From positions 1 through 53,140 of the forward strand of contig JAOABX010000018.1 in the NCBI GenBank assembly GCA_026418175.1: 53,140 nucleotides of DNA. The letters are read 5' to 3'. The notes beneath the pieces were generated by a model, which saw only the letters and a program-made list of their open reading frames with translations, was not told where the DNA came from and made no database searches. How positions within the stretch are numbered: position 1 is the stretch's first letter; each line of letters starts with the position of its first letter. The position numbers and the translations under genes were made by a program. This document shows positions 14,454-22,687 of this stretch, piece after piece. The DNA comes from Flavobacteriales bacterium. GTDB taxonomy: Bacteria > Bacteroidota > Bacteroidia > CAIKAF01.

Positions 14454-16133
14454 TTATTCTTTAATCAAAGTATATAAAGAAACCTCATTTTCTTTGCCCT
14501 TGAATAATCGGGTAGTAACATATTCTGCATGGATGCTGGGTAATAAGTCGAGCCGGCGTAACAGGTTTTCTGAAATTAGCATTTTTTTTCCCAAGCTGAT
14601 ACATTGATTCAAAATTCGTTCGGTGGTATTAATTACATCACCATGAAATACAATTTCTGTTTTGGTGCGGCCCACTTCGCCGGTAATAACTTTTCCTCCG
14701 TGCATACCTACCTTGAATTCTGGGCAAAATCCAAATTTTTTTATGTATTCGGGGCGAAGTTTTTCCATTTGTTTTTCAATTCGAAAATAACAACGAATGC
14801 AATTGGCATTTTTTACTCCATCTTTCATTTTCCATGTTACTACAACTTCATCGCCAACATATTGATAGATTTCTCCTTTTGATTTGCTGATGGGTTCGCC
14901 AATGTCATAAAAAAATCTATTCAGCAATTCGTGATACTTTTCGGTACCCATTTTTTCGGCCAAACTGGTAGAGGAGTTAATGTCGAGAAACATAAAGATT
15001 CGTTCTTCTTCTATGGGTTTATGATACATGCCCATAATGTAATTCATCATAAGTCTGGGGCCTATGATGCGGCTAGTTAATTTAATAATGTTTAAGATAA
15101 CACTGATTAGAAAAGCTGACCAAAGCATAATCATAATGCCTTGAGTAGAAATAATATCTTTGAAAATTCTCGATTCTGTGATTTCAGAAAAATTCATTTC
15201 GGCCAACAGCAGGTCGTATATTACCATGCCGATATATTGCGCCGATTTGAATAATGCAATTAGCGTGAATGTGCCAATAAATAAAGAAACCGGAAAATTA
15301 AATTTTCGAATAATGAGGCGTTCAAAAGGCCTATCGCCAATACGCAAAGCTAGCCCAATTAAGAAACCAGAGATTGACCCAATTCCCCAGGAATAGCTAT
15401 AATTACCCCAAACAGTTAAACTCAATGAAATACCTATGACCAGGCCTAAAAAAATAGTCCCTGCCGCATTTAGCAATGTATTACTAATTTGAATTGCATA
15501 TGCTTTAGATTGTTGAGTAATCTTACTGGTTTCACGTTCTAATTGAATGCTGCGTTCTTTGAATAGTTTAAGGTTCCGGTCTTTTTGTTCCTGGTATCTC
15601 AGAAAGGCATACCGGGTTAGAAACTCAGTTTCCTGCAAGTATTTAATTTGTATATCACACCATTCTTTATCAGTATAATGTTTATCTAAATACACTTCCC
15701 ATTCTTTGCGAAGTAATTCACCTCGTTCTTCAAAATTTTCTAATCCCATCGACAACCTGTCAGCATCAATCAGCACCGATTCAAGAATATTTCCGGCATC
15801 ATGCAAGTATTTGGTGGCTAGAATACAATTTTTGATGATTGTAATTTTTTCTTCGGGGTAGTTTTTACTTCGTAAAAAATTTTCTGCAATGAACTGGCTT
15901 TCTTCTTCATGGCCTACGTACTGTTCTGTGTAACCCACATCATGAAACCAAGCTGCTATGGCTACAATTTCCAGCTCTTCACCGGTAAGTTTTTCTCCGC
16001 TGCCAATTTCCAAAGCCCTTGCCACCACTTCACGGGTATGGTTTAGGTCATGATAATACAATTCTTTGGGAAGCTTTTCTTCCATTAATTGGGTTACATA
16101 GGCTTCTATTTCCTGCATTAAATTGGTGTTCAT
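14454..16133 (-). CDS. HD-domain / membrane / class III nucleotide cyclase protein
   Basis: The ATG at 16133 is chosen over an upstream TTG at 16154. Residues about 1-190 are a small HD phosphohydrolase domain (H32 in LNHT, H64-D65 in AWFHDVGY, D123/D125 in LIDADRLS). A helical stretch follows, then about four membrane segments between ~215 and ~355. Residues about 375-559 are a class III adenylate/guanylate cyclase catalytic domain: metal aspartate D384 in FMFLDINSSTS, D428 in QYVGDEVVV, and GDVINTTER with N502 and R506. A Gln stands before YVGD where adenylate cyclases often have Lys, so the nucleotide is uncertain. The protein could both make and degrade a nucleotide signal. It is followed 12 bases from xerD on the same strand. 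Confidence 0.85.
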   Translation of the reverse strand: MNTNLMQEIEAYVTQLMEEKLPKELYYHDLNHTREVVARALEIGSGEKLTGEELEIVAIAAWFHDVGYTEQYVGHEEESQFIAENFLRSKNYPEEKITIIKNCILATKYLHDAGNILESVLIDADRLSMGLENFEERGELLRKEWEVYLDKHYTDKEWCDIQIKYLQETEFLTRYAFLRYQEQKDRNLKLFKERSIQLERETSKITQQSKAYAIQISNTLLNAAGTIFLGLVIGISLSLTVWGNYSYSWGIGSISGFLIGLALRIGDRPFERLIIRKFNFPVSLFIGTFTLIALFKSAQYIGMVIYDLLLAEMNFSEITESRIFKDIISTQGIMIMLWSAFLISVILNIIKLTSRIIGPRLMMNYIMGMYHKPIEEERIFMFLDINSSTSLAEKMGTEKYHELLNRFFYDIGEPISKSKGEIYQYVGDEVVVTWKMKDGVKNANCIRCYFRIEKQMEKLRPEYIKKFGFCPEFKVGMHGGKVITGEVGRTKTEIVFHGDVINTTERILNQCISLGKKMLISENLLRRLDLLPSIHAEYVTTRLFKGKENEVSLYTLIKE

Positions 16134-16165
16134 GAATATTACCAATGCATACAAAGATAGCGTTT

Positions 16166-17062
16166 TTAGCTGCGGGGATGAAACTGTATGATGGTGTCGC
16201 GGAGGTATTGCCTGTCTAAATGGGTATAAATTTCAGTGGTGGTGATTGAAGCATGGCCTAGCATTTCCTGAATGGCTCGAAGGTCAGCTCCACCGTCAAT
16301 GAGATGGGTGGCAAAGGAATGACGTAGGGTATGTGGACTAATGGTTTTATGAATACCGGCTCGGGCTGCCAAATCACGTATCATAATGAAAATCATTTGC
16401 CGGGTAAGTTTTCTGCCGTTACGATTTAAAAACACAATATCTTCAAACCCTTTTTTTATGGGGATGTGAACACGGATTAGTTCCAGGTAATTTTTAAGGT
16501 AACGGATAGTAATTTCGCTAATGGGTACGAGTCGTTCTTTATCTCCTTTGCCAATTACCCGAATAAAGCCATCGTTTAAAAACAAGTTTGAAATACGAAG
16601 CTCGGTAAGTTCGCTTACCCGTAATCCGCAGCCATACATGGTTTCAATGATTGCTTTGTTACGCTCGCCTTCGGGCTTGCTTAAATCAATGGCTGCAATC
16701 ATTCGGTCAATTTCTTCTACCGAAAGTACTTCTGGGAGTTTCCGTCCCAGCTTGGGCATTTCTAACAGTTGTGATGGGTCGGTTTCAATCAATTTTTCCA
16801 GGGCCAAATACCGAAAAAAAGCCCGAATACCTGAAATGATACGGGCCTGAGAAGTAGCAGAAAGCCCTAAGTCGTGAAGCCAGGTAATGAAACCTGTAAG
16901 TTGCTGCAACTGAATATTTCTTGGCTCAAACCGAATGTTTTCTATTTCGCAGTATTGCATAAACTTTCCTACATCATCCAAATAAGCTTGAATACTATGT
17001 TCGGAAAGCGATTTTTCCAACTGAAGATAGGCTTTAAAATTTTGAAGATATATTTTACTCAC
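16166..17062 (-). CDS. xerD: Site-specific tyrosine recombinase XerD-like
   Basis: This 298-residue protein has the standard Xer length and layout, with a SAM-like domain (1-~90) and a catalytic domain. Motifs are GLRVSELTEL (catalytic Arg), IGKGDKERLVP (Lys), SPHTLRHSFATHLIDGGADLR without break in the original, LGHASITTTEIYTHL (His and nucleophile Tyr), and PKLGRKLPEVLS before the catalytic domain. Xer enzymes resolve chromosome dimers at dif with FtsK. The start is GTG; no closer ATG fits. It differs from the recombinase at 2628-3758, which has an added N-terminal domain. It is upstream of the HD-cyclase gene in the same direction and divergent from aroQ. Confidence 0.9.
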   Translation of the reverse strand: MSKIYLQNFKAYLQLEKSLSEHSIQAYLDDVGKFMQYCEIENIRFEPRNIQLQQLTGFITWLHDLGLSATSQARIISGIRAFFRYLALEKLIETDPSQLLEMPKLGRKLPEVLSVEEIDRMIAAIDLSKPEGERNKAIIETMYGCGLRVSELTELRISNLFLNDGFIRVIGKGDKERLVPISEITIRYLKNYLELIRVHIPIKKGFEDIVFLNRNGRKLTRQMIFIMIRDLAARAGIHKTISPHTLRHSFATHLIDGGADLRAIQEMLGHASITTTEIYTHLDRQYLRDTIIQFHPRS

Positions 17063-21100: not shown

Positions 21101-21635
21101 TCTTTTTTTGTTTAGGAATTATCTCCAATACATGTATTTTATAAATTACCGTTGATAAAGGAGGAATTTTTGCCATATCTCCGGCTAATCCAAAAGCTCT
21201 GTGGGAAGGAATAATGATGATGGCTTTGTCTCCTTTGTGTAAGTATTTTATAGCTTCGTGCATACCACTTTCTACGTTATCATAGTCCACCACAAAATGT
21301 TCGGGGCCTGATTCTTTCGATGTATAACACACAGTACCATCCAGCAATGAAATTTCAAAGTCAATAATTACCACATCGCCACTGGCCGGTGTTTCATCGC
21401 TGCCTTGTTCAATAATCATGTATCTAACACCGGTTCCGGTCTCTGTCATATTCCAGTTACGGCGTTTTACATAACCATCAATAGCAAGTTTTTCTTCCCG
21501 GCTTAACTTTCGATTCACTTTCATCAATGGCTCTTTCAATTCGTTCATGTTAATATCCGGTACAGGTTTCTGAATTTTTTCTTTGCAACCTGCAAATGCC
21601 AATAAGCTAATAAAGATGAGCAGTTTGATATGCAT
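21081..21635 (-). CDS. GldI-like FKBP lipoprotein
   Basis: The ATG at 21635 gives a lipoprotein signal (MHIKLLIFISLLAFAGC, Cys at 17) and overlaps the nrnA stop codon by one base (TGATG), which indicates coupled translation. Residues about 75-175 are an FKBP domain (GDVVIIDFEISLLDGTV, MHEAIKYLHKGDKAIIIIPSH, AFGLAGDMAKIPP). The preceding NRKLSREEKLAIDGYVKRRNW resembles the helix before the FKBP domain of GldI, a lipoprotein needed for gliding in Flavobacteria. The nrnA-gldI neighbourhood, as I recall it from Flavobacteriia, supports this. T9SS genes elsewhere in the window fit a role in folding T9SS or motility components. The gene identity is inferred, not proven. Confidence 0.72.
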   Translation of the reverse strand: MHIKLLIFISLLAFAGCKEKIQKPVPDINMNELKEPLMKVNRKLSREEKLAIDGYVKRRNWNMTETGTGVRYMIIEQGSDETPASGDVVIIDFEISLLDGTVCYTSKESGPEHFVVDYDNVESGMHEAIKYLHKGDKAIIIIPSHRAFGLAGDMAKIPPLSTVIYKIHVLEIIPKQKKNDTSIK

Positions 21636-22687
21636 CACAGATGTAAACTTTCTAAAACAGTTTTGTATTGTGGTAAGCATTCTAAAAAATGATTAACAGC
21701 TAAGTTTACCGGCCCGTTAAATTGCCCTCCGGCTGCATTGCGGTGTCCTCCTCCGTCAAAGAAACGGGAAGAAAACTCATTGGCCGGAAAGGTACTTTTT
21801 GAACGAAATGACACTTTCGTTGTATGATCTTCTCGTTCAAAGAAAAATGCTCCAAAAATAATTCCTTCAATACTAAGGGTATAATTTACAATTCCTTCAG
21901 TATCGCCCTTTTTAACACCAAAAGAACGAAGTTCTTCGCCTGATAAATGAATAAATGCTGTTTTGTATTCAGGCAATATAACCATTTTTTCATTTAGGCA
22001 ATATCCAAGCAGTTTAAGGCGTTGAGGAGTATTTACATCAAAAATTTTGGTAATGATGTGTTCTGTATCAATACCAGTTTTTAATAATTCTGAAGCGGTT
22101 TCAAATGTTTGTGGCCGGAGAGCATGTCTAAAACATCCGGTATCTGTAACAAGTCCGGCATAAATGCAGGTAGCAATGGTTTTGTCTAACGAAATGTCTG
22201 AAAAATATTTTACATAAAAATCAAACACCAGTTCACAAGTACTGCTAGAAGTAATGTCATGAAATAAAAAATCATAAGCTTCGATTTCTGGATGAGGATG
22301 GTGGTCAATCATAATTTTCAGGCAAGGATTTTCCCGAACAAATTTTTCTAACACTCCGCAGCGGCTTACATGCCCGTAATCTGAAGAGATTATACAATCA
22401 GCATTTTGAATGTAAGTTTCTGCTATTGTATTTTTTTTATCCCAAATAATAATATTTTCTGCTCCGGGTAAAAAATTCAAAAAGTATGGAAGCGAATCTT
22501 CTACCACTACATGGGTTGGCACACCTGCTTTGTTTAATAAATGCATTAAAGCCAACGAAGAGCCAACAGCATCTCCATCCGGTGATTTGTGTGGTATAAC
22601 CACTGCTTGCCTGCATGAGCGCAGTTTTAATATTGAACCTGGAATTGATGTGTTTTTCAAGTTAAATAATTCTATATTGTTAGTCAA
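21635..22687 (-). CDS. nrnA: DHH-family oligoribonuclease / pAp phosphatase NrnA
   Basis: The motifs HKSPDGDAVGSSLAL, SSDYGHV, MIDHHPHPE (DHH) and TDTGCFRHA form the metal-binding DHH core. The DHHA1 domain ends with FRSKSTFPANEF and FFDGGGHRNAAGGQF. NrnA degrades nano-RNAs and converts pAp (3'-phosphoadenosine 5'-phosphate) to AMP in the cytosol. Length 350 is usual. It is the first gene of an operon with two FKBP lipoproteins and is divergent from ndk. Confidence 0.93.
   Translation of the reverse strand: MTNNIELFNLKNTSIPGSILKLRSCRQAVVIPHKSPDGDAVGSSLALMHLLNKAGVPTHVVVEDSLPYFLNFLPGAENIIIWDKKNTIAETYIQNADCIISSDYGHVSRCGVLEKFVRENPCLKIMIDHHPHPEIEAYDFLFHDITSSSTCELVFDFYVKYFSDISLDKTIATCIYAGLVTDTGCFRHALRPQTFETASELLKTGIDTEHIITKIFDVNTPQRLKLLGYCLNEKMVILPEYKTAFIHLSGEELRSFGVKKGDTEGIVNYTLSIEGIIFGAFFFEREDHTTKVSFRSKSTFPANEFSSRFFDGGGHRNAAGGQFNGPVNLAVNHFLECLPQYKTVLESLHL

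Follow-up and report, generated by a model that had tools for sequence, protein, structure and literature searches.

Does a bacterial protein that joins an HD domain to a class III nucleotidyl cyclase through a membrane region both make and destroy one cyclic nucleotide? The question is raised by a gene in the window, by which we mean the whole 53,140-nucleotide stretch of DNA that was analyzed, contig JAOABX010000018.1 of a Flavobacteriales bacterium. The original prediction placed one polypeptide at positions 14454 to 16133 and read it as a combined synthase-hydrolase. The coordinates were right and enclose a protein of 559 aa, with the reading frame lying on the minus strand; the plus-strand frame over the same positions is full of stops. 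The features of the locus are as follows.

14454..16133, minus strand: whole gene, 559 aa, encoding an HD domain, four membrane helices and a class III cyclase; ATG at 16133, stop at 14454-14456
15549..16133, minus strand: N-terminal HD domain, residues 1-195 (Pfam PF01966; residues kept in 47 HD domains; AlphaFold pLDDT 97.5)
15057..15497, minus strand: four membrane helices, approximately residues 213-359, with a long helix from residue 174 ahead of them (hydropathy and charge pattern; model helices)
14457..15014, minus strand: class III nucleotidyl cyclase domain, residues 374-559 (PF00211; OaPAC fold match; alignment)
16166..17062, minus strand: gene for a xerD-like recombinase, next upstream of the fusion gene and separated from it by a 32-base gap

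Layout and conservation of the fusion gene

The N-terminal domain matched the Pfam HD family PF01966 over residues 30 to 129 (25.4 bits, cut-off 22), and the C-terminal domain matched PF00211 (Guanylate_cyc) over residues 380 to 556 (45.4 bits, cut-off 21.9). Hydropathy analysis of the region between them revealed four hydrophobic segments, within residues 213 to 359, in agreement with the estimate of about four membrane helices. In every one of the 15 orthologues, the juxtamembrane stretch that follows the last helix has 4 to 7 Lys/Arg but lacks Asp/Glu, and by the positive-inside rule this Lys/Arg-rich, acid-free stretch makes it most likely that both catalytic domains are cytosolic, as had been proposed. 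The whole-protein model reached a pTM of 0.43, and its arrangement of domains is therefore unreliable.

The full layout of HD domain, four membrane helices (4TM) and cyclase is present, in one copy each, in 15 of 16 genomes of the source family; the sixteenth genome (G010), which is 77% complete, shows an unfused cyclase. Identity to the window protein is 43 to 93% for the other 14 orthologues, and a frame left open by chance is ruled out by 15 orthologues that range down to 43%. Alignment showed that the HD residues H28, H32, H64, D65, E76, D123 and D125, as well as the cyclase residues D384, D428, N502, R506, Q424 and V495, are invariant in all 15 orthologues. The intact HD residues and the cyclase with both metal aspartates, Asn and Arg that had been described from the window protein are thus kept throughout, and so are the Gln (15/15) and the fused layout (15/16), whose conservation the original prediction had marked as a point to check. 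Averaged over pairs, the orthologues share an identity of 0.46 in the HD domain, 0.40 in the membrane part and 0.63 in the cyclase. When one genome per species was scanned and the best 80 of 492 loci were taken, the fusion was present in the 14 loci that matched the full query and absent from the other 66. In three of the surveyed family genomes (G005, G007 and G011), the fusion gene is the only class III cyclase and also holds the only HD domain of its family. Together, these results indicate that the fusion gene is real, conserved and functionally suggestive.

The genes around the fusion gene are xerD, aroQ and murF-alr, and no PycTM or PycTIR effector gene is adjacent. Of 14 named orthologous loci, 10 have the xerD-like gene next to the fusion gene, and this kept neighborhood, together with a single full-layout copy in 15 of 16 genomes, led us to reject a defense-island gene and suggests that the fusion is a core gene rather than part of a mobile island. 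Around 20 bases before the ATG, at window positions 16152-16159 of the minus strand, the sequence TATCTTTG resembles the Bacteroidota -7 promoter box, so the fusion gene may be transcribed from a promoter of its own as well as by read-through from xerD. The promoter scan returned 4 promoter-like sites, fewer than the 10.9 that chance would give. Elsewhere in the window, positions 21635-22687 of the minus strand hold an ORF that by eye resembles a DHH/DHHA1 phosphoesterase, which could be another nucleotide-signal hydrolase.

Residues, folds and relatives of the two catalytic domains

The cyclase domain has all class III signature residues, namely the two metal Asp (D384 and D428) and the transition-state Asn (N502) and Arg (R506). 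Its model matched OaPAC (Z 22.3, rmsd 2.3, 185 aligned), and Cya2 and CyaC also matched. In class III cyclases, Lys together with Asp or Thr specifies ATP, and Glu specifies GTP. The usual adenylate cyclase pair is absent from the window protein: in the alignment, Q424 falls on the Lys of OaPAC, just as the original prediction had it, and V495 on the Asp/Thr place. The combination of Gln424 and Val495 at the base-specifying places fits neither the ATP rule nor the GTP rule. From the Gln, a product such as cGMP or an unusual nucleotide had been suspected. This was not established, and we rejected the Gln as the mark of a special nucleotide, given that it is a trait of the 4TM-cyclase family. 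All fused rows carry it (30 rows, a number inflated by loci that were counted twice, from 15 distinct genomes), as do 68 of 70 unfused relatives, a sample biased toward Gln, which was written into one of the two search patterns. Gln also stands at this place in Rv0386, a mycobacterial adenylate cyclase. We take cAMP as the default product. Matches to PF00027, which are candidate receptors, were found in 17 of 17 genomes searched, two of them in the genome of the window. The pyrimidine cyclases EaPycC, AnPycC and BcPycC have other residues at the base-specifying place (PMC11224242). In Bacteroidota, Ignavibacteria and Chlorobiota, 4TM class III cyclases also occur as stand-alone proteins; their cyclase domain and part of their 4TM region are homologous to those of the window protein, but their chain contains no HD domain. 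The window genome itself encodes a second, unfused 4TM class III cyclase (G000:C7:25723-26598; L022, L106), with Lys at the 424 place.

The HD domain contains the motif H...HD...D. Loss of the HD residues in homologues had been named as one outcome that would refute the prediction, and we found that all metal and acid residues are kept in 47 of 47 HD domains from six contexts. The AlphaFold model of the domain (pLDDT 97.5) shares its fold, over nearly the whole domain, and the H-x3-H and HD motifs with class I cyclic-nucleotide phosphodiesterases (PDEs; Z 17.2 to 18.4, rmsd 2.3 to 2.8, 191 to 195 of 200 residues), and it ties equally with bacterial HD hydrolases (2pq7, Z 18.6; Lin1889, 17.7; YpgQ, 17.6). 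The rank order in the PDB fold list says little, because PDE10A entries crowd it. Unlike the class I PDEs, the window HD domain is much shorter, and its sequence stays below the cut-off of PF00233, the class I PDE family. PF00233 matched 2 of 20 HD domains (best E 0.015, below the cut-off), and over 198 genomes it yielded no match above the cut-off and two below it, namely an HD-PycTM protein (L116) and an unrelated HD protein that by eye is dGTPase-like (L117). The YpgQ/2pq7-type bacterial HD hydrolases are stand-alone proteins. Besides sharing the fold tie, they include the solved structure that the HD profile matched best by sequence (2pq7, E 1.1e-10). A Foldseek search with the HD model gave no match reaching E 0.001, and a phmmer search of solved structures with one HD-PycTM HD domain gave nothing useful. 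Given the tie with other HD hydrolases and the sub-cut-off PF00233 scores, the fold permits a phosphodiesterase without proving one.

A tree of 47 HD domains resolved two clades with support of 100/100. Clade one comprises cyclase-HD fusions and stand-alone HD proteins, and clade two comprises HD-PycTM proteins, fusions of HD with polyphosphate kinase 1 (HD-PPK1) and the HD-4TM-cyclase of the window, plus a stand-alone HD (L134) and the HD domains at L020 and L044. The window-type HD domains form a single branch (81/71) beside the HD-PycTM proteins of L125 and L132 (95/88). Gln162 is found in all 15 window-type HD domains, all 5 cyclase-HD fusions and 7 of the 8 stand-alone HD proteins (27/28), the one exception being in a genome that lacks a class III cyclase (G029). 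Among the effector fusions, it occurs in 2 of 14 HD-PycTM proteins, both of them sisters of the window group, and in none of 3 HD-PPK1 proteins. This distribution suggests that position 162 may mark ligand choice.

Co-occurrence of the HD family with class III cyclases

We searched 198 Bacteroidia genomes with a profile of 20 HD domains (A2) and with PF00211, and transcribed the genome sets for the counts by hand from the match tables. Both families were present in 117 genomes, the HD family alone in 13, the cyclase alone in 3 and neither in 65 (Fisher p 5e-35). When each of 48 families was represented by a single genome, the corresponding counts were 24, 4, 0 and 20 (p 1.3e-9). In the control, PPK1 was set against the HD family over the same 198 genomes, and the counts were 105, 25, 51 and 17 (p 0.36). 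We therefore rejected the possibility of a generic HD protein, on the basis of the co-occurrence with class III cyclases versus the PPK1 control. The A2 profile itself favors co-occurrence because it contains cyclase-fused HD domains, and stand-alone HD proteins serve as the control for this: among the matches listed, a class III cyclase is present in 44 of 46 genomes that have stand-alone HD proteins only, a set from which genomes of mixed HD type were left out.

The two families are also linked on the chromosome. Visual selection among 21 HD and 16 cyclase rows gave sixteen pairs with the HD domain within 104 bases of a cyclase domain; ORF length indicates a single ORF for 11 of them and two separate genes for the other 5. 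Read by eye, five ORFs carry the HD domain C-terminal to a class III cyclase with the canonical Lys and Asp signature, behind N-termini that differ from one another. A stand-alone HD gene adjoins a cyclase gene at four loci (L121 to L124). At L107 (966-1589), L115 (6121-6744) and L121 (3210-3887), the stand-alone HD gene is directly followed by a gene that by eye is universal-stress-protein-like.

The 13 HD-positive genomes without a PF00211 cyclase include six with HD-PycTM proteins (G036, G093, G114, G185, G198 and G204), two with a stand-alone HD protein (G029 and G113) and four with weak HD matches (G025, G054, G123 and G203), in addition to G146. In the nine of these 13 genomes that were searched with one PycC model, no match was better than E 0.38. 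The existence of such genomes implies that effector-linked HD domains need not rely on a class III cyclase, and it is to the effector-linked clade that the window HD domain belongs in the tree.

The relatives of the HD domain are fused to canonical-looking adenylate cyclases, to Pycsar-type PycTM effectors and to PPK1. The HD-PycTM proteins (PF01966 plus PF18967), its closest relatives in the tree, carry the PycTM membrane effector where the window protein has a cyclase. Three ORFs of 900 to 920 aa (L118, 619-3378; L119, 2412-5156; L120, 2796-5495) join an N-terminal HD domain to a complete polyphosphate kinase 1, and because of this fusion the ligand of the HD domain could be something else. 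In four loci of Ignavibacteria/Chlorobiota (L043, L045, L050 and L051), a 4TM-cyclase gene, ppk1, sixA, a gene that by eye is potassium-channel-like and a full-length HD-PycTM gene lie together; the cluster recurs at L042, where the contig ends within the HD-PycTM gene. In a Bacteroidia genome (L125), ppk1, a 4TM-cyclase gene and an HD-PycTM gene lie side by side. At L128, L129 and L130, HD-PycTM genes are divergent from genes for proteins of approximately 1240 to 1260 aa that by eye are phosphoesterase-like lipoproteins. PycTM (PF18967) was absent from the 16 family genomes. The simplest history would be that a cyclase gene and a neighboring HD-PycTM gene fused and that the PycTM part was lost; the position of the window HD domain beside the HD-PycTM proteins of L125 and L132 is as expected if neighboring genes fused. 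For Acidithiobacillia, a genomic link of cAMP synthesis, by a class IV cyclase, with PPK has been proposed (PMC6416229).

A proposed local source and sink, rival readings and plant CAPE

The combined synthase-hydrolase of the original prediction remains the best-supported reading, on the strength of the co-occurrence, the fusions and adjacency, the kept HD residues and the fold, with both activities being predicted ones. We propose, with a probability of roughly 0.5, that the window protein is a membrane-tethered bifunctional enzyme that locally both produces and removes one cyclic nucleotide. Two copies would pair through the four helices so that the C-terminal domains form the class III cyclase, which would convert a nucleoside triphosphate to a 3',5'-cyclic nucleotide. 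The N-terminal HD domain, on the cytosolic side of the membrane as well, would use its metal centre to hydrolyze that cyclic nucleotide. Since source and sink would share one chain, the signal could be kept local or brief, at a level set by whatever the membrane part may sense.

The HD domain might instead bind the cyclic nucleotide in order to sense it or to switch the cyclase by feedback, while hydrolyzing little or none of it, and in its relatives pass the signal to PycTM or PPK1. We consider this unlikely. The window HD domain does lie in a clade with HD-PycTM and HD-PPK1 effectors, where a sensing role is as likely, and the attachment of one domain to several different outputs is what would be expected of a sensor; yet a pure sensor need not keep the metal and acid residues that are invariant in 47 HD domains, and the separate second clade sits on cyclases or stands alone. 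We are equally doubtful that the HD domain hydrolyzes another phosphate compound, such as polyphosphate, nucleoside triphosphates or the pyrophosphate that the cyclase sets free. The fold tie with YpgQ-like pyrophosphohydrolases, the PPK1 fusion, the position of HD genes beside ppk1, sixA and PAP2 genes, and two genomes without a class III cyclase in which HD-PycTM adjoins ppk1 (G093 and G185) would all suit such a substrate. However, the HD family follows class III cyclases (p 5e-35) and does not follow PPK1 (p 0.36), and the removal of pyrophosphate is a general need that would not track cyclases.

That the gene is a one-gene relative of Pycsar phage defense, with cyclase, ligand domain and membrane part in a single chain, seems very improbable. 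The PADLOC PycC models do match the cyclase (best E 2.6e-12), and the HD-PycTM proteins are closest to the window HD domain, but the 16 family genomes contain no PycTM domain.

The known layout nearest to that of the window protein is the one of plant CAPE (COMBINED AC with PDE), which in basal plants joins an N-terminal class I PDE, membrane helices and a C-terminal class III cyclase. CrCAPE, GbCAPE and AaCAPE have four helices and most CAPE proteins an even number; the proteins are approximately 1250 aa long in three species, and the PDE domain of Marchantia was expressed as residues 101-479 (PMC5159850, PMC8115329). Both AC and PDE activities were measured for Marchantia CAPE (PMC5159850). 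The likeness to the window protein is one of layout only, with an HD-fold hydrolase, an even number of helices and a class III cyclase in the same order in one polypeptide. In contrast to CAPE, which has a recognized class I PDE domain, the window protein has an HD domain of approximately 195 residues that scores below the PF00233 cut-off, and we do not class it as CAPE because PF00233 is not reached. Its 4TM part, in addition, is common to bacterial stand-alone cyclases, and its activities are predicted ones. The relationship of the membrane part to these cyclases makes convergence with CAPE likelier, and the window protein is probably best read as a bacterial look-alike of plant CAPE. No description of this HD-cyclase pairing was found in the accessible portions of the literature searched, with subscription papers mostly outside its scope.

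How Bacteroidota remove cyclic mononucleotides is, to our knowledge, largely open. An HD family that tracks class III cyclases closely is a directly testable hydrolase candidate, and the fused gene is the simplest test object, with two active sites in one protein. We tentatively suggest that the family may consist of hitherto undescribed bacterial phosphodiesterases for cyclic mononucleotides. It would be a minimal version of the class I PDEs and would serve class III cyclase signaling across Bacteroidia, with clade two as the cyclic-nucleotide input and timer of PycTM and polyphosphate kinase and the window protein as an independent invention of the CAPE layout. If this is true, plants and bacteria would have reached the same cyclase-plus-hydrolase layout, and cyclic nucleotides would be linked with polyphosphate and with Pycsar-type membrane effectors.
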